64,000 bases of DNA from Sphingorhabdus lacus. GTDB taxonomy: Bacteria > Pseudomonadota > Alphaproteobacteria > Sphingomonadales > Sphingomonadaceae. The position numbers and the translations under genes are program-made. The stretch lies in NCBI RefSeq assembly GCF_009768975.1, contig NZ_CP035733.1:806001-870000 (forward strand), in the 5' to 3' direction. Shown here piece by piece: positions 29,458 to 37,950 of the stretch. How positions within the stretch are numbered: the stretch's first letter is position 1; each line of letters begins with the position of its first letter. The notes under the pieces are model-generated. The model ran no database searches and had not been told where the DNA came from. It saw only the letters and a list, made by a program, of their open reading frames with translations.

Positions 29458-31719
29458 TTAGCGTCGTTTTCCCTGATGCCGGATATTTTTCGGTCGCCCG
29501 CGCTTGCCGACGTCAAACTTGCCCGCCTTATGCTTATGCTTTGGCCGGTCTGATGGATATGTTGCGCCATCGGGTAATTCGAAGCGCAACGACCCCGACA
29601 CGGGATTGGCCTCTGCCAACCTGAGTTCGAGCCGCATACCAGGCCGGAATTCCTGCCGCGTCTTTTCGCCGATCAGCGTCTGGCTTGCTTCGTCATAATG
29701 GAAATAGTCTTTCCCGAGAGTTGACACAGGCACCAAGCCATCGCCGCCAACCCCTTCAACTGTAGCGAAAAATCCGAAATTCTGCACGCCAGTAATGCGC
29801 GCTTGCACGATTTCTCCGACATGCGCCGACAGATAGACGGCGATGTAGCGGTCGGTCGTCTCGCGCTCCGCTTCCATGGCGCGGCGTTCGGTGCGGCTGA
29901 TTGCTTCGGCCGTGGCGGCGAGCTTTGCGACAGCAACCTCGGTCAGGCCAGTCATCGGCTCCACATCATTCAGCTTCGGCTTCGGCATTTCCAGGCCATA
30001 GGCGCTGACAAGTGCGCGGTGGACGATCAGGTCGGCATAGCGACGAATGGGCGAGGTAAAGTGGGCGTAACTGCCCAGCGATAGTCCGAAATGGCCGACA
30101 TTTGTGGGGCCATAATAAGCCTGGGTCTGGCTCCTAAGCACAGCTTCCATGATTTGCGGACGGATTTCTTCGTCAATGACCTTGCTCAGGATCGTATTGA
30201 ATGTCTCGGGCTTGATGACTTGGCCCAACGCGAAATCAATGTCGAAGGTCTGCAGATATTCCTTCAGAGCGACCAGCTTTTCTCGGCTCGGTGGTTCGTG
30301 CGCGCGGTAGATGAGCGGCGATTTCTTTGCCTCCAGGGCTTTTGCAGCCGCGACATTTGCGGCAATCATGAAATCCTCGACCAGCCGGTGTGCTTCCAGT
30401 TGTTCACGCTCCGCAACGCCCGTGACACGCCCCTGCTCGTCCAATGTGATCCGCTTTTCTGGCAAGTTCAGTTCCAGCGGCGCGCGCTTGCTCCTTGCCC
30501 GCGCCAGCAACCGCCAGCACGCCCAAAGCGGCTTGAGCGCGGTCTCCAGCAGGGGACTTTCCATCTTTCCGTCAATCGCAGCCTGCGCGTCGGGATAGGG
30601 AATATTGGCGGAAATCCGGGCCACAGCGCGGGCGAAACGCCATGACGTCACTTGTCCGGACTTGCCGATCGCCAGATGGCAGGCAATGACCGCCCGATCC
30701 TCGCCAGCGCGCAAAGAGCATTTGTCGGAGGACAAGGCGTGGGGGAGCATCGGGACCACGAGGTCCGGGAAGTAAACACTATTGCCGCGCTTCACGGCTT
30801 CGCGGTCGAGCGCGCTGCCAGGGCGGACATAATAGCTGACATCGGCAATGGCGACGATCGCATCAAAGCCACCCGTCTCCGCATTGGGCGCTGCCCAAAT
30901 GGCATCATCGAAATCACGGGCATCGCGTGGGTCGATCGCAATGATCGGCAAATGCCGCAAATCTTCGCGATGGTCGGCAGTGACCGGCAAGCGGCTGACC
31001 AAAGCGGCCTCCACTTCCGCATTTTCCGGCATTTCAAAAGGAATGCCATATTTGTGGATCGCAATCAGGCTGAAGCTTTTCGGCGCAAAAGGATCACCGA
31101 GCACTTGGGTCACCCGCGCCGACTTGCGTTGTGCGTTGCCGGTTAGTTCCGCCAAGACCAGATCGCCTGCCTTTGCGTCGCCTACGTCACCAATGGGCGT
31201 GTCGAAACGCGCCTTCTTGTCGACGGATTTCAGCCAGAAGCGTCCATTGTCGCCGCCTTCGACCACGCCCAATATCTGCTCGCTTCCCTTGGCGAGCTTT
31301 TTCATGACATGCGCCGTCCAGCCATTGCCGCGCTCTTCGGTGCGGGCCAGGATACGGTCGCCTATTCCAAGCGCCCCGCGCTTTCCCTTGGCCTCTACAA
31401 CACGGATTTTGGGGATCGGGATGCCTTCCGCTTCCCAATGTTCGGGAACAGCAACAGGCTGGTTGCCATCAATGCCGACGATTTTGAGAACCGTAACCTT
31501 GGGAACGCCGCCCATCTTATGAAATGCGCGACCGGGAGCCATGTCGATCAGCCCCTCATCGGTCATATCTTTCAGCAGTGCCTTGAGCGCTATCTTCTCA
31601 TTCCCACGCAACCCGAATTCACGCGCAATTTCGCGCTTTCCGGCGGGTTCATTGGACGTCTGGATAAACTGGAGAATTTGTTCGCGGTTAGGGAGACCAA
31701 CAGGGTGTTTTTTTGTCAT
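29458..31719 (-). CDS. rnr: Ribonuclease R
   Basis: 753 residues from MTKKHPVGLP. N-terminal helical/cold-shock regions, the RNB catalytic domain with DPRDARDFDDAIW (metal-binding aspartates), and a C-terminal S1 domain (VGEIVQARITGVQNFGFFATVE) with a basic KHKHKAG...KRR tail. Processive 3'-5' exoribonuclease able to degrade structured RNA. Its ATG overlaps the stop of the GxxExxY gene by 4 bp (31716-31719), so that gene lies in the leader of rnr. Confidence 0.95.
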   Translation of the reverse strand: MTKKHPVGLPNREQILQFIQTSNEPAGKREIAREFGLRGNEKIALKALLKDMTDEGLIDMAPGRAFHKMGGVPKVTVLKIVGIDGNQPVAVPEHWEAEGIPIPKIRVVEAKGKRGALGIGDRILARTEERGNGWTAHVMKKLAKGSEQILGVVEGGDNGRFWLKSVDKKARFDTPIGDVGDAKAGDLVLAELTGNAQRKSARVTQVLGDPFAPKSFSLIAIHKYGIPFEMPENAEVEAALVSRLPVTADHREDLRHLPIIAIDPRDARDFDDAIWAAPNAETGGFDAIVAIADVSYYVRPGSALDREAVKRGNSVYFPDLVVPMLPHALSSDKCSLRAGEDRAVIACHLAIGKSGQVTSWRFARAVARISANIPYPDAQAAIDGKMESPLLETALKPLWACWRLLARARSKRAPLELNLPEKRITLDEQGRVTGVAEREQLEAHRLVEDFMIAANVAAAKALEAKKSPLIYRAHEPPSREKLVALKEYLQTFDIDFALGQVIKPETFNTILSKVIDEEIRPQIMEAVLRSQTQAYYGPTNVGHFGLSLGSYAHFTSPIRRYADLIVHRALVSAYGLEMPKPKLNDVEPMTGLTEVAVAKLAATAEAISRTERRAMEAERETTDRYIAVYLSAHVGEIVQARITGVQNFGFFATVEGVGGDGLVPVSTLGKDYFHYDEASQTLIGEKTRQEFRPGMRLELRLAEANPVSGSLRFELPDGATYPSDRPKHKHKAGKFDVGKRGRPKNIRHQGKRR

Positions 31720-32147
31720 GTCGCGCCGAGACAATTTTGGTTCGCACGAAGACACGAAGACACAGAAGACGGGCGGTCATTTAACAAGCGTTTTATTCCA
31801 TCCTTGAACAGTGATGTGCCAAAATTGAGGACAAACCCGTGGGTCAAATTGGTGAGGCGTAGATAGGTTATGACTTGCTTCGCATGGACCGGTAGCGTCT
31901 TCCCGACCGATTTGATTTCAAGGATGATACGTTTTTCAACAAGTAAATCTACCCGGAATGCCGAAGGTAGTCGAATAGCATCATATTCAATATCGATCGG
32001 CACTTGCCGATCCACTGTAAGCCCTTTGCTTTGCAACTTGGCTGCCAAGATCACCTCATAGGCACTTTCAAGCAACCCCGATCCGATATCTTTGTGAATC
32101 TTGAAGGCCGCATCCACGATGATAGAGCAGATATGTTCAATCTCCAT
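31716..32147 (-). CDS. GxxExxY family protein (PD-(D/E)XK nuclease-like)
   Basis: 143 residues from the ATG of MEIEHICSII; a longer frame upstream reads through the flanking repeat and is not used. The signature GLLESAY (G24-Y30) defines the family. D67 in FRVDLL and E77-I-K79 in ILEIKSV match the PD-(D/E)XK nuclease core. The family's function is unknown to me. The last 25 or so codons are encoded partly by the left inverted-repeat arm, which makes the C-terminal tail (PSSVSSCLRANQ) a by-product of the repeat. It lies between proS and rnr. Confidence 0.85.
   Translation of the reverse strand: MEIEHICSIIVDAAFKIHKDIGSGLLESAYEVILAAKLQSKGLTVDRQVPIDIEYDAIRLPSAFRVDLLVEKRIILEIKSVGKTLPVHAKQVITYLRLTNLTHGFVLNFGTSLFKDGIKRLLNDRPSSVSSCLRANQNCLGAT
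31739..31769 (+). repeat. Left arm of the GxxExxY inverted repeat
   Basis: Begins GGTTCGCACGAAGACACGAA. Pairs with the reverse complement of 32154-32184 at 27 of 31 positions by hand alignment. It has an internal period of about 8 (AAGACACG, AAGACACA), giving a microsatellite-like look, and lies inside the 3' end of the GxxExxY gene. Confidence 0.85.
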
Positions 32148-32153
32148 TCTACC

Positions 32154-32184
32154 CTCTTTGTGCCTTTGTGTCTTTGTGCGAACC
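32154..32184 (-). repeat. Right arm of the GxxExxY inverted repeat
   Basis: Reads GGTTCGCACAAAGACACAAA on the minus strand. Differs from the left arm at four positions, three of them G/A changes within the AAG-CAC units. It lies just upstream of the GxxExxY start and directly after proS. Confidence 0.85.
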
Positions 32185-32185
32185 C

Positions 32186-33715
32186 CTAATAAGTCCGCCC
32201 GATCAATATCCGCTCGACCGCAGGCTCTCCGGTAAAGAAACAAGCTCCATCCACGGCAGCGGCTTCAAGCGGACTGTTGCGCATGGTCAGTTTCAGGGCC
32301 TTCAACTGCTCGACAATCTTATCGAGAGCAGCACCCGTAGGACGTGCCCATTGCACTTCGACCCAGCCTGCAAAGCCTGCTTCGTCACCCGCAAAATGGG
32401 TCGCAAGGTCCGTCACATCGCGGCGGATATTCGCGTCCATGCGGGCCTTCGCTTCTGCATAAAGTGTCGCCTGGATATCTTCGATCATTGCAACAGCGCC
32501 GCTGACGAATTCGGCTCGTGGCGTGAAGGCTGTGGCGAGCTTGCCATCGTCCTTGTACAAACGGTCACGCCGTAAAACGGCAGCTTTCCCTTCGGAAACA
32601 TCCCGGGGGCCGACTTCGACAATGATCGGTGCACCCTTTTTGACCCAGGACCAGCGTTTGTTAGACGCCTTTGTCGCTTTGGTGTCGAGCAATACACGAA
32701 GAGGCTCACCGAACGCCGAAAGCGCCAGCAATTCGGTACGCAGGGTGCGGCAATATTCTAAAACCACCTCGTCATCGTCATTGTCGCGCAGCATCGGAAT
32801 GATGATAATTTGGTGCGGTGCAATCTGGGGCGGGCAGCGCAAGCCGTCATCGTCGCCATGGGTCATGATGACCCCGCCAATCAAACGCGTCGATACGCCC
32901 CAGCTGGTGGTGTGTGCGTATTGCTGACTGCCCTCTTTGTCCTGATACCGGATCCCAGAAGACTCCGCAAAACCGGTGCCGAGATAATGCGACGTTCCAG
33001 CTTGCAGGGCTTTGCCGTCCTGCATCATCGCTTCGATGGAATAGGTCGCTACAGCACCCGGGAAACGTTCATTTTCCGGCTTTTCACCGGCAACGACCGG
33101 CATCGCGAGCGGACCTTCCGCAAAAGCACGGTACATTTCGAGTGCGCGCATGGTTTCCTTGAGCGCATCTTCCCTGTCGACATGGGCCGTGTGCCCTTCC
33201 TGCCACAGGAACTCGCTCGTACGCAAAAACATGCGCGTACGCATTTCCCAGCGCACCACGTTGGCCCATTGGTTGACCATCAAAGGCAAATCGCGCCAGC
33301 TTTGAACCCAACGGCTCATGGCGGCACCGATTACCGTTTCCGATGTCGGGCGCACGACCAACGGCTCTTCCAGCTTGGATTCAGGATCCGGGATCAGCTT
33401 CCCCTTGCCGTCACCCACTAGCCGATGATGGGTAACAACCGCCATTTCCTTGGCAAAGCCGTCCACATGGTCGGCTTCTTTTTCAAAGAAAGACAAGGGA
33501 ATAAACAACGGGAAATAGCAGTTATCGACGCCTGCAGCCTTGATTTCGGCATCCATCAGTTTCTGGATGCGCTCCCAAATGCCGTAACCCCAAGGACGTA
33601 TGACCATGCATCCGCGGACACCTGATTCCTCGGCGAGATCGCCTTCGGAAATAACCTCCTGGTACCAGCCCGCAAAATTCTGGGTCCGGGTGACATTTAA
33701 TGCATGCTTTATCAA
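32186..33715 (-). CDS. proS: Prolyl-tRNA synthetase, archaeal/eukaryotic type
   Basis: 509 residues. Class II motifs: motif 1 region RGCMVIRPWGYGIWERIQ, motif 2 with RPTSETVI and NQWANVVRWEMRTRMFLRTSEFLWQEGHTAH read in separate stretches, and a C-terminal zinc-binding-like domain ending FFTGEPAVERILIGRTY. The lack of the bacterial editing insertion and this C-terminal ending mark the archaeal-type (ProS type 3) rather than the bacterial form. The AT-rich 35-bp gap upstream (33716-33750) could contain its promoter. Confidence 0.93.
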   Translation of the reverse strand: MIKHALNVTRTQNFAGWYQEVISEGDLAEESGVRGCMVIRPWGYGIWERIQKLMDAEIKAAGVDNCYFPLFIPLSFFEKEADHVDGFAKEMAVVTHHRLVGDGKGKLIPDPESKLEEPLVVRPTSETVIGAAMSRWVQSWRDLPLMVNQWANVVRWEMRTRMFLRTSEFLWQEGHTAHVDREDALKETMRALEMYRAFAEGPLAMPVVAGEKPENERFPGAVATYSIEAMMQDGKALQAGTSHYLGTGFAESSGIRYQDKEGSQQYAHTTSWGVSTRLIGGVIMTHGDDDGLRCPPQIAPHQIIIIPMLRDNDDDEVVLEYCRTLRTELLALSAFGEPLRVLLDTKATKASNKRWSWVKKGAPIIVEVGPRDVSEGKAAVLRRDRLYKDDGKLATAFTPRAEFVSGAVAMIEDIQATLYAEAKARMDANIRRDVTDLATHFAGDEAGFAGWVEVQWARPTGAALDKIVEQLKALKLTMRNSPLEAAAVDGACFFTGEPAVERILIGRTY

Positions 33716-33750: not shown

Positions 33751-34299
33751 TTAGTCAGCCGACAGTTTGTCGATCTTTGCCTGAAGGTCGGCCATCTGCT
33801 TTTTCAGATCATCAATGCTTTCCGCCTTTTCCGGTTTTTTACCGGCGAGGTTAGGCATCAACGCCTCCCGCGCAGACCGCATGAATTCGATATTCTGCTT
33901 TGCGATATGCCCAAACGGGCCCGACGTGATGGCGGTTTCGATGACTTCCTGAACCTGTTTCTGGTTCTTGCGGAAATTGTCCATCGAGCTTTCGAGGAAC
34001 TGGGGGACCATCCCCTGCATCGAATCCCCATACATTGCGATCAACTGCCGAAGGAAGCCGACCGGCAACATTTGCTGGCCACTATTCTCTTCCTCCATGA
34101 TGATCTGGGTCAGAACGCCATGGGTGATATCTTCATTAGTCTTCGCGTCCAGAACCTTGAAATCGATTTCTTTTCGCGTCAGATCGGCCAGGAAATCCAA
34201 CGTAATATATTTGGATGACTGCGTATTATAAAGCCGCCGGTTGGCATATTTTTTGATGATGACCGGGCCGTCACCATTTTTGCTGGCTGCGCGTGCCAT
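33751..34299 (-). CDS. phaR: Polyhydroxyalkanoate synthesis repressor PhaR
   Basis: 182 residues. The N-terminal PHB/PHA accumulation regulator DNA-binding domain contains IIKKYANRRLYNTQSSKYI; a PHB-binding segment follows (about 65-120) and the C-terminus is a coiled coil (SIDDLKKQMADLQAKIDKL). PhaR represses phasin and its own gene and is released when it binds nascent PHA granules. No PHA synthase or phasin gene is in the window. Confidence 0.93.
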   Translation of the reverse strand: MARAASKNGDGPVIIKKYANRRLYNTQSSKYITLDFLADLTRKEIDFKVLDAKTNEDITHGVLTQIIMEEENSGQQMLPVGFLRQLIAMYGDSMQGMVPQFLESSMDNFRKNQKQVQEVIETAITSGPFGHIAKQNIEFMRSAREALMPNLAGKKPEKAESIDDLKKQMADLQAKIDKLSAD

Positions 34300-34627: not shown

Positions 34628-34647
34628 TTGTTGCAATGCGGCAACAA
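34628..34647. promoter_or_regulatory. Inverted repeat upstream of the first TonB receptor
   Basis: TTGTTGC and GCAACAA form perfect 7-bp arms around AATGCG, about 108 bp before the receptor ATG. It could be an operator or a leader hairpin; it is not followed by a T-tract. Confidence 0.35.
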
Positions 34648-34755
34648 AATTCCAAAAATGCAAAATATGCTTCCTTACCTCTTGCGCATCTAAAGTCCGT
34701 GCGCTTAACCGGCGCATTAATTCTAAATGAACAAACTAGCTGGGGAGCTATATAT

Positions 34756-37700
34756 ATGAAGAAGTCACGCCTGATGATTGCGGGTTCGGCAATCAGCCTT
34801 GCGTTGTTCGCGGCCATGCCGTCGTTCGCGCAGGATTCGCAAAGCGATGAAGCTGCAGCAGAAAGTGAAGACGAAGCCGAAGAAGAAGGCCCGTCGCAAC
34901 CTATTCTGGTTACCGGTTCGCGTATTGCGCGCCCTACCCTGCAGTCCGCCGTTCCGCTGACTTCGGTTACCGTTGAAGATCTGACCGGCACCGGCGAAGT
35001 TTCGCTGGGTGACGCGTTGAACGATCTTCCTTCGCTGCGTTCAACCTTCAGCTCGGGTAACTCGAGCCGCTTCATCGGCACCGCCGGTCTTAGCCTTCTC
35101 GACCTTCGCGGTCTGGGTACGGACCGTACGCTGGTTCTCGTAAACGGTCGTCGTCACGTCACCTCGACACCAGGCGACAACGGCTTCGACGTCAACACGA
35201 TCCCAACCGATCTGGTTGACCGTATCGACATCGTCACCGGCGGTAACTCGGCTATTTACGGTTCCGACGCTGTGGCCGGTGTTGTCAACTTCATCATGAA
35301 GCGCGACTATGACGGTATCGTTGCCCGTGCACAGGGCGGCATTTCGTCGCGCGGTGACCGTGGTACCTATTTCGCCAGCATTCTCGCCGGTGAAAATTTC
35401 GCTGATGGCCGTGGTAACGTTGCCGTTTCCGCAGAATATACCCGTCAGCAACCTCTGTACTTCCGCGATCGTGACGCCCTGACCGGTGCCGCAAGCGGCC
35501 GTTGCCAGTTCCAGCTTACCGACGCACAGGGTGCAGCAGGCGGCGAAGTCGGCTTCAGCGCAACCGACGGTATTCCCGACAACTCGTTCCTGTGCGGCAT
35601 CCGCAACAGCACGATTTCCGACGCCGGTACGATCGGTGGCCTTAGCGGCGGACGCTTCCTGCGTTTCGACGACGCCGGCAACCTCTTCATCGACACCCCG
35701 ACGCAGAACTTCGCGAGCGTAGGTTCGGGCAACAGCCAGGGCGGCTTCGGTTCGACCCTGCGTAACACCGGCAGCTTGCTTGCTGCTGTTGACCGTTATG
35801 CGTTCAACGTTCTGGCACATTATGACGTGTCCGACGCATTCAAGCCGTTCATCGAAGCCAAATATGTCCGCACCGACGTATCGGGCGAAGGCCAGCCAAG
35901 CTTCTTCACCAGCGTTCCCGGAACTCTGGGCGGCGAACCTTTCCGCTGCAATAACGGCTTCTTGACGGCCGCAAACCTTGCAACCTTGCAAAGCGTTGGC
36001 CTGTGCGCAACGCCTGCGACCGGAACATTCCCGCTGGCACGTTTCAACATCGACTTCGGCGGTCGTCGTTTCGAAGGTACACGTGAAACCTACCGCGTTG
36101 TTGGCGGCATTGAAGGTAACTTCAATGAAGATTGGAAATATGAACTGGCCATCAACTACGGCCGTTTCAAAGCCAAGGGCTTCAACACCAACAACCTGAT
36201 CCTGTTCACAGAAGACGGCAGCGATTATGACGGCTTCAACCAAGCTGTTCAGGCAGTTATTGCTCCTGCGTCGTTCACCGGCACAAACTTTGTTTTGAAC
36301 AGCGCTGGTCAGCGCGTTATCTGCGCCATGAACGCAGTAACGAACGTCAACCAGGCTTGCGTTCCGATCAACGTATTTGGTCAGGGTAATGCTGATCCGC
36401 GCGCTCTGGACTTCATCAACACCGAAGGCCGGACCGACGAATTCGCAAGCCAGTTTGTCGCATCCGCATTTGTCGGCGGCGACCTGTCGCAGATCTTTGA
36501 ACTGCCCGGCGGTCCAATCGCATTCGCTATCGGCGCTGAATACCGCAAGGAAAAGGCTTCGATCGATTATGACGATCTGACATCGAGCGGCGCGACCTTC
36601 TTGAACGCACTTCAGGATTTCCGTCCGCCCGCATTGACCGTCAAGGAACTGTACGGCGAACTTCAGATCCCGCTGCTTAAGGATATGCCTTTCGCCAAGG
36701 AACTGTCGGTCAACCTCGCAGGTCGTGTATCCGACTATAACAATTCGACGGGTACCGTTTACGCCTACAACATCCAGGGCGTTTACGCACCGATCGAAGA
36801 CATCCGTTTCCGTGCAGCCTATGCAACTTCGGTACGTGCACCGACACAGGGCGACCTGTTCTCGACCGCGTCGGAAAACTTTGCCTTCATCGCTGACCCT
36901 TGCGATTTGCCGGCACCCGGAAGCACAGCAGCCACAAACTGCGTTGCTGCCGGCGTTCCAACGACCGCTAACGCGGCATTGGTTGCTGCATGCGCAAGCA
37001 CGGCCTTCCCTGTCGCTTTGGGCGCACCGTTCATCAACTGTACGGCACGTACCGCTTCGACCGGCTTCCTTTCGGGCGGTAACCCCACCCTGATCGAAGA
37101 AAAGGGCAAGAGCTTGACCTTGGGCGTTGTTGTTGAGCCAAGCTTCGTTCCTGGCCTCAGCCTGACGGTCGACTTCTACCGCATCAAGGTGGAAGACCTG
37201 ATCGCCGCATTGGGCGCGCAGCAGATCATCAACCTCTGCTACACCAACGCTGGCGGCATCAACAACCCGTTCTGCGCCACTGTATCGCGTGACCCTGCAA
37301 CCGGCCTGTTTGCTGAACCTGCCGTTATCTCGGGCGGCGTGAACTTCGCAGCACAGAAGACCAAGGGTATCGACTTCGACCTCGCCTATCGGAAGACCTT
37401 CGACAATGGCGATCGTCTGGCCGCACGCTTGATCGCTACCAAGGTATTGTCGCTGAATAACTTCACCGACCCGACCAACCCTGCGAACCCGAACCGTCAG
37501 TTGAGCGAACTGGGCGACCCTGCATGGTCGGCTAGCTTCTCGCTGAGCTACGACTTTGGTGACTTCGACATCCTGTATGCCGCACGTTACATCGGCAAGC
37601 AGACCATCGGTGCTTATGAAGCGCAGAACAACTACTTCGGTCAGTGCCCATTGGCGGGTACTTTCCGTGGACAGACCGGTCTGAATGGCGGAACCTGCGA

Positions 37701-37950
37701 TCCAGTTCTGGGCAACATCGTCCAGTTGGCACCTCAGAACGCCGACCAGTTCCCTCAAAAGAACTATCCTGATGTTCTGTACCACGACATCCGTCTGGGC
37801 TTCGACGTAGGTAATGACTTCCGCTTCTACGCAGGCGTCAACAACCTCCTCGACAAGCAACCGCCACTCGGCCTGCTTGGTACCGCCGGTGGTGATCCGT
37901 TCGACAGCTTTGGCCGTAACTTCTTCTTCGGTCTTGAAGCCAACTTCTAA
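34756..37950 (+). CDS. TonB-dependent outer-membrane receptor, copy 1
   Basis: 1064 residues from the ATG after GGGGAG; signal peptide MKKSRLMIAGSAISLALF with cleavage near Ala25 (SFA-Q), then an acidic segment and ILVTGSRIARP, a TonB-box-like start. The plug domain includes GLGTDRTLVLVNGRRH and a GSDAVAGVVNFIMKRD block; the beta-barrel ends with the outer-membrane signature ..NFFFGLEANF (terminal Phe). Codon use is strongly biased (Phe almost always TTC), pointing to high expression. Substrate unknown; relatives include peptide, saccharide and siderophore importers. Its paralogue follows 199 bp downstream. Confidence 0.93.
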   Translation: MKKSRLMIAGSAISLALFAAMPSFAQDSQSDEAAAESEDEAEEEGPSQPILVTGSRIARPTLQSAVPLTSVTVEDLTGTGEVSLGDALNDLPSLRSTFSSGNSSRFIGTAGLSLLDLRGLGTDRTLVLVNGRRHVTSTPGDNGFDVNTIPTDLVDRIDIVTGGNSAIYGSDAVAGVVNFIMKRDYDGIVARAQGGISSRGDRGTYFASILAGENFADGRGNVAVSAEYTRQQPLYFRDRDALTGAASGRCQFQLTDAQGAAGGEVGFSATDGIPDNSFLCGIRNSTISDAGTIGGLSGGRFLRFDDAGNLFIDTPTQNFASVGSGNSQGGFGSTLRNTGSLLAAVDRYAFNVLAHYDVSDAFKPFIEAKYVRTDVSGEGQPSFFTSVPGTLGGEPFRCNNGFLTAANLATLQSVGLCATPATGTFPLARFNIDFGGRRFEGTRETYRVVGGIEGNFNEDWKYELAINYGRFKAKGFNTNNLILFTEDGSDYDGFNQAVQAVIAPASFTGTNFVLNSAGQRVICAMNAVTNVNQACVPINVFGQGNADPRALDFINTEGRTDEFASQFVASAFVGGDLSQIFELPGGPIAFAIGAEYRKEKASIDYDDLTSSGATFLNALQDFRPPALTVKELYGELQIPLLKDMPFAKELSVNLAGRVSDYNNSTGTVYAYNIQGVYAPIEDIRFRAAYATSVRAPTQGDLFSTASENFAFIADPCDLPAPGSTAATNCVAAGVPTTANAALVAACASTAFPVALGAPFINCTARTASTGFLSGGNPTLIEEKGKSLTLGVVVEPSFVPGLSLTVDFYRIKVEDLIAALGAQQIINLCYTNAGGINNPFCATVSRDPATGLFAEPAVISGGVNFAAQKTKGIDFDLAYRKTFDNGDRLAARLIATKVLSLNNFTDPTNPANPNRQLSELGDPAWSASFSLSYDFGDFDILYAARYIGKQTIGAYEAQNNYFGQCPLAGTFRGQTGLNGGTCDPVLGNIVQLAPQNADQFPQKNYPDVLYHDIRLGFDVGNDFRFYAGVNNLLDKQPPLGLLGTAGGDPFDSFGRNFFFGLEANF

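Follow-up and report, generated by a model that had tools for sequence, protein, structure and literature searches.

Organization of the unit between proS and rnr

The window (the whole 64,000-nucleotide stretch of Sphingorhabdus lacus DNA analysed here) contains, between proS (32186–33715, minus strand; TIGR00408) and rnr, which encodes RNase R (29458–31719, minus strand; TIGR02063), a unit of 446 bp (31739–32184, minus strand) that consists of two inverted arms and a single gene in the same sense as both flanking cistrons. The CDS (31716–32147, minus strand) encodes a 143-aa GxxExxY protein with a PD-(D/E)XK nuclease fold, and is matched by TIGR04256 (3.4e-36) and PF13366 (4.8e-36). The upstream (5′) arm (32154–32184, minus strand; GGTTCGCACAAAGACACAAAGGCACAAAGAG in gene sense) is built of three CACAAAG-type octamers, an octamer type also seen at other genomic loci, and its 3′ end passes into a purine-rich AGAGGG ahead of the ATG. 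The downstream (3′) arm (31739–31769, plus strand; GGTTCGCACGAAGACACGAAGACACAGAAGA read inward) codes for the C-terminal tail of the protein and is followed by a spacer up to the rnr ATG (31720–31738, minus strand) that is missing from empty sites. The initial annotation, made from the letters of the window, had described arms in inverse orientation at these positions, with part of the C-terminal tail encoded by the left one, which we confirm; the unit also lies in sense within a housekeeping operon, whose transcript the initial annotation supposed it to use. The same holds for its junctions, as the outer end of the upstream arm lies one base from the proS stop codon (32186–32188), the downstream arm begins 19 bases from the rnr ATG (31719–31717), and the GxxExxY stop overlaps this ATG as ATGA (31716–31719). 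The match of 27 of 31 positions that it gave for the arms is too high, as without a gap only 24/31 positions pair, with a core (31739–31764/32159–32184) matched at 23/26 (88%). The inverted match is nevertheless far above chance, with a score of 18.5 against a maximum of 12 among 389 placements of the same geometry elsewhere in the window. The G+C content of the unit is 47% (window: 55%). Only 38 bp separate the proS stop from the GxxExxY ATG, which leaves little room for a promoter of its own, and the unit is probably expressed as an extra cistron of a host operon. By eye, the genes further out are ordinary, i.e. a PhaR-like polyhydroxyalkanoate regulator (33751–34299, minus strand) and a TonB-dependent receptor-like protein (34636–37950, plus strand).

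The GxxExxY protein has a PD-(D/E)XK fold

The protein scores 124.1 bits against the GxxExxY family profiles (TIGR04256/PF13366 PDDEXK_3), for which the cut-offs are 35 and 22. Across 38 homologues, D67, E77 and K79 are invariant, as are the residues G24, E27 and Y30 of the GxxExxY signature. The AlphaFold2 model (pLDDT 90.8) adopts a PD-(D/E)XK fold, such that both hallmarks of the superfamily, the D…ExK residues and the fold, are found in the window protein. Its structural neighbours are the Cas4-like SSO0001 (4ic1, best Z of 8.6), restriction-enzyme-like proteins and Hjc (Z about 6). The fold and the catalytic D…ExK motif are common to GxxExxY and the archaeal Hjc and Cas4-like nucleases, but the structural Z values are only middling and a sequence search of the PDB for a solved homologue gave no match; Z values of this size show, for a predicted model, the fold of the GxxExxY protein rather than its function. 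The protein is under purifying selection (dN/dS 0.02–0.28). Two further assignments were rejected, namely a known anti-phage defence gene, as the PADLOC models gave no match, and phage or plasmid cargo, as GxxExxY genes are rare there (3 viral loci and 8 plasmid records).

Empty, filled and decayed sites in relatives

At least 14 congeners have no insertion at this junction, with only 3 bp separating the proS stop from the rnr ATG. The junction is empty in most relatives, as the initial annotation had proposed to check, and the absence of arms from these empty junctions excludes that they are conserved proS or rnr sequence. The gene itself is carried by 19 of 45 congeners. A full unit occupies the proS–rnr junction in four genomes, S. 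lacus included, whereas others hold remnants: G016 has a relic with an internally deleted gene, and G009 has a gene-less palindrome of another octamer type. In G027 (L066, from about 3024), one of these four, the full unit is succeeded by a tandem array of three units with an internal deletion; each repeat of this array also contains the final 24 bp of proS along with the initial bases of rnr, which indicates that the array arose together with flanking target sequence. Unrelated open frames lie just after proS in two close relatives (L053 of G022 and L054 of G019), so that the junction, judged from these sequences, looks like a hot spot for insertions.

Comparable differences are found at other positions. 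The second GxxExxY copy of S. lacus is present in G016 and absent from G019 and G022; a lysA-like site is filled in G016 and is an empty stop/start overlap in S. lacus; a further site holds a gene unit in G014 and G042, whereas G008 and G039 have, at this very position, a gene-less palindrome whose octamers are of a different type. The gene-less palindromes J and G are likewise polymorphic between species. No clean target-site duplication was found at sites whose empty counterparts are too diverged to give exact junctions; at one of them, the Shine-Dalgarno/ATG region may be repeated in degenerate form.

The arms accompany GxxExxY genes across bacteria

GxxExxY genes were gathered from the genus, from 398 Pseudomonadota genomes and from 80 loci across >15 phyla. 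In 82% of 130 copies, the flanking inverted repeats are stronger than all 243 displaced-window controls of the same loci, and in 91% they lie above the 95th percentile of this null; when left arms are paired with right arms from other copies, the corresponding figures are only 9% and 20%. The median arm is 30 bp and the median unit 467 bp, and the self-match within arms peaks at lag 8. GxxExxY genes elsewhere thus carry arms of the same type throughout, a comparison that the initial annotation had suggested, and no other gene was found between the arms in the sampled full units. Triple-octamer arms are present in 56 of the 65 genomes with the gene and in 33 of the 333 without it (OR 57, Fisher p 3.6e-35, a value inflated by relatedness). 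The association persists both inside (p 7e-5) and outside (p 7e-10) the most sampled family, with p again inflated by relatedness, as well as within the genus (p 0.003, the gene's own arms being counted in). The strict arm pattern is missing from 8 gene-bearing genomes outside the dominant family (f43) and from 1 inside. One contig labelled Arthrobacter sp. TPD3018 (Actinomycetota; L117) carries the sphingomonad fabG-site unit together with sphingomonad flanks, and this assembly is probably mislabelled or contaminated.

A different arm type is found at TIGR02436 four-helix-bundle genes (L222–L250), which are flanked by inverted arms of tandem 7-mers, e.g. (GGCAGTA)n or (GTGAGTA)n. CRCRRAG occurs in the arms of none of 17 such genes versus 85 of 101 GxxExxY genes, and outside the dominant family the four-helix-bundle genes have no association with the octamer pattern. 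Period-7 arms that lack CRCRRAG imply that arm type is tied to protein family.

Dispersed arms and gene-less palindromes

The arm module is an 8-base tandem composed of C[A/G]C[A/G][A/G]AG (CRCRRAG) and one further base, with 2–4 octamers per arm. Dispersed copies were located by sequence searches, a check that the initial annotation had proposed, and the arms do recur in the genome: the same octamers are present at further loci of S. lacus, mostly as gene-less palindromes or single arms, and only one of these loci (C1:2101687) flanks the second GxxExxY gene. Arms are far more numerous than genes: the genome holds 20 arm matches for 2 GxxExxY genes, and the numbers reach 205 matches versus 2 genes in G222. 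Across 11 congeners, gene-less arms are closer in octamer type to the gene arms of their own genome than to the gene arms of another (0.546 versus 0.327, p 0.0008). A search of Rfam gave no match to a known RNA family.

The palindromes exist in two polarities, a converging one, as around the gene, with 30–250 bp inside, and a diverging one that forms a tight hairpin in which the usual outer ends face each other. Diverging palindromes were seen at L253, L256, L257, L258 and L260, as well as at loci of G045, G042, G032 and G043; with a gap of about 12–30 bp, they resemble a circle junction or two abutting ends. Nested palindromes, in which an octamer-armed unit lies within or overlaps another of a different octamer type, were seen at L307, L308, L309, L311 and L315. 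The 1.8-Mb draft G253 (L296–L298) has 133 triple-octamer matches and no detected GxxExxY gene, and its units enclose another dispersed repeat.

Gene units are inherited vertically and lie in sense with their neighbours

For the 14 shared insertion sites, as defined by flanking genes, the protein tree requires 13 label changes, the minimum for 14 site groups, which points to one insertion per site followed by vertical descent with loss. On the evidence of this tree, gene-bearing units move rarely and are inherited vertically at each site, and a recent burst of gene units is ruled out. From the proposal of the initial annotation of a compact, possibly self- or helper-mobilised cassette, the compact unit bounded by inverted repeats and devoid of a transposase stands, whereas ready mobility of the gene unit does not agree with one clade per site; it is gene-less palindromes that make up the dispersed copies. 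Some sites cross genera, with Sphingopyxis soli having the same proS–rnr site.

At 4 of the 5 sites with at least 5 arm pairs, the left and right arm of a given copy are more similar to each other than to the orthologous arms (172/190, 52/55, 20/21 and 10/10 pairs); the proS site departs from this, with only 2 of 10 pairs. Co-variation of the arms was looked for and not seen at the proS site or at the small sites g2, g5 and s28, and the small sites overall are mixed. Overall, the two arms thus tend to vary jointly, and in many cases every module has switched type at once. Among gene units with clear neighbours, 69 are in sense with both and 3 are antisense to both (p 3e-17), and the left arm begins a median of 7 bp past the upstream stop; gene-less palindromes display neither sense bias nor stop adjacency. 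The simplest reading is that gene units would persist where a host operon transcribes them.

Comparison with known systems

In REPIN/RAYT systems, a mostly vertically inherited enzyme gene lies between inverted repeats, and the genome contains short palindromes with the same repeats, which persist in some genomes without the gene; REPINs have been termed the sole intragenomic sequence population that is stably maintained in prokaryotes (PMC8049555). The GxxExxY units share this layout, i.e. a mostly vertical gene between inverted repeats, dispersed palindromes with the repeats of the enzyme gene, and some genomes with palindromes only. They differ in that a PD-(D/E)XK nuclease takes the place of the Y1 HUH transposase, the repeats consist of tandem octamers whose type varies, and the gene lies in sense inside operons. 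A Y1 transposase (PF01797) is absent from the S. lacus genome and from 41 of 45 congeners; its presence in only 4 of 45 congeners rules out a RAYT/REP origin of the arms for the genus. Insertion sequences and MITEs likewise have terminal inverted repeats, gene-less deletion derivatives and nested insertions, but the GxxExxY units have no transposase gene, have octameric arms, show no clean target-site duplication (against diverged empty sites), and their gene copies do not proliferate.

Similar in dimensions is the 23S intervening sequence (IVS) with an S23p/four-helix-bundle ORF (TIGR02436), at about 440 bp with ∼28-bp terminal inverted repeats, one small ORF and a closing RNA stem. The Coxiella IVS is 444 nt with a 28-bp terminal stem and one small loop ORF, and is cleaved by RNase III (PMC4990558). 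The termini of the window unit are also able to form such a stem, as the RNA of the element folds with the two arms as closing stem (z −3.45). In contrast to the IVS, the GxxExxY unit lies outside rRNA, encodes an unrelated protein and has arms of period 8 rather than 7, and TIGR02436 is absent from the S. lacus genome.

A proposed pairing of a nuclease with its own palindromes

Taken together, these units form an apparently undescribed, bacteria-wide family of compact elements comprising a GxxExxY gene, two inverted octamer arms of ∼30 bp each, and gene-less palindromes. In the open-access literature, to which the search was confined, no description of such units was found, the octamer strings gave nothing relevant, and arms are not mentioned in the papers in which GxxExxY is named. 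The scatter of gene-less arms through gene-carrying genomes suggests that nuclease and repeats are a working pair. The nuclease would recognise the octamer arms of its own unit, either in duplex form, in hairpin or cruciform form, or in both, and would cut them, whereupon host replication and repair would duplicate the palindromes to new sites, much as RAYT does for REPINs. We put the probability of such a REPIN/RAYT-like pairing, in which palindromes are duplicated through the action of a PD-(D/E)XK nuclease on its own arms, at roughly 55%, because arm type tracks both protein family and genome and no other candidate enzyme came to light; the linkage is observed, whereas mobilisation is what we infer from it. 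The 33 genomes with arms and no detected gene count against it, as do the 9 gene-bearing genomes that lack the strict pattern, the arms of the proS site, which fail to match each other better than their orthologues, the lack of a clean target-site duplication among the sites compared, and the absence of a recent burst of gene units from the tree. More tentatively, and at somewhat less than even odds, GxxExxY proteins may be enzymes dedicated to a second class of bacterial palindromic repeats, self-propagating and transposase-free, in which each protein would read its own octamer type, nuclease and arms would shift specificity together, and the protein would spread gene-less palindromes; four-helix-bundle units, with their period-7 arms, would then form a sister class of the same layout. 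A common ‘uncharacterised’ gene thereby gains an anatomy, a probable substrate and a means of testing it. If true, another stably kept intragenomic sequence population would stand beside REPINs by way of an unrelated nuclease, and the parallel between period-8 (nuclease) and period-7 (four-helix-bundle) arms would offer a route into the nature and spread of 23S intervening sequences.

A rival reading is an element acting at the RNA level, in which the arms are the transcript stem that closes the cistron and is cut by RNase III, leaving the flanking cistrons undisturbed, with the concert of the arms reflecting RNA pairing and the nuclease being selfish or useful cargo. The predicted RNA fold, the similarity to the Coxiella IVS in size, stem, loop ORF and cleavage (PMC4990558), the periodic arms that we find at its ORF family, and the position of gene units in sense directly past stop codons all agree with it. 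We nevertheless regard it as unlikely on its own, since it leaves unexplained why gene-less palindromes occur throughout the genome, why they accompany the gene and why their octamer type matches, the gene-less units are neither stop-adjacent nor sense-biased, and pairing alone does not need octamer periodicity; it could hold alongside the pairing of nuclease and palindromes.

It is also improbable that the palindromes belong to a repeat family that host or other machinery disperses, and that GxxExxY is an unrelated gene caught between arms and kept for another role. Such a passenger would account for arms in genomes that lack the gene and for periodic arms around unrelated proteins, and the link between nuclease and arms is one seen in sequence; yet period-8 CRCRRAG arms accompany GxxExxY and not the four-helix-bundle genes, the odds ratio is 57, and gene arms and dispersed arms have their octamer type in common. 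Finally, a host-serving nuclease that processes cruciforms or hairpins, with the arms as its own regulatory or processing sites and no present mobility, would fit the long vertical inheritance at each site, the purifying selection and the weak, middling-Z resemblance to Hjc and Cas4, but is very unlikely given a patchy presence, frequent loss (19/45 congeners with the gene), relics and many gene-less copies, which look selfish rather than essential.
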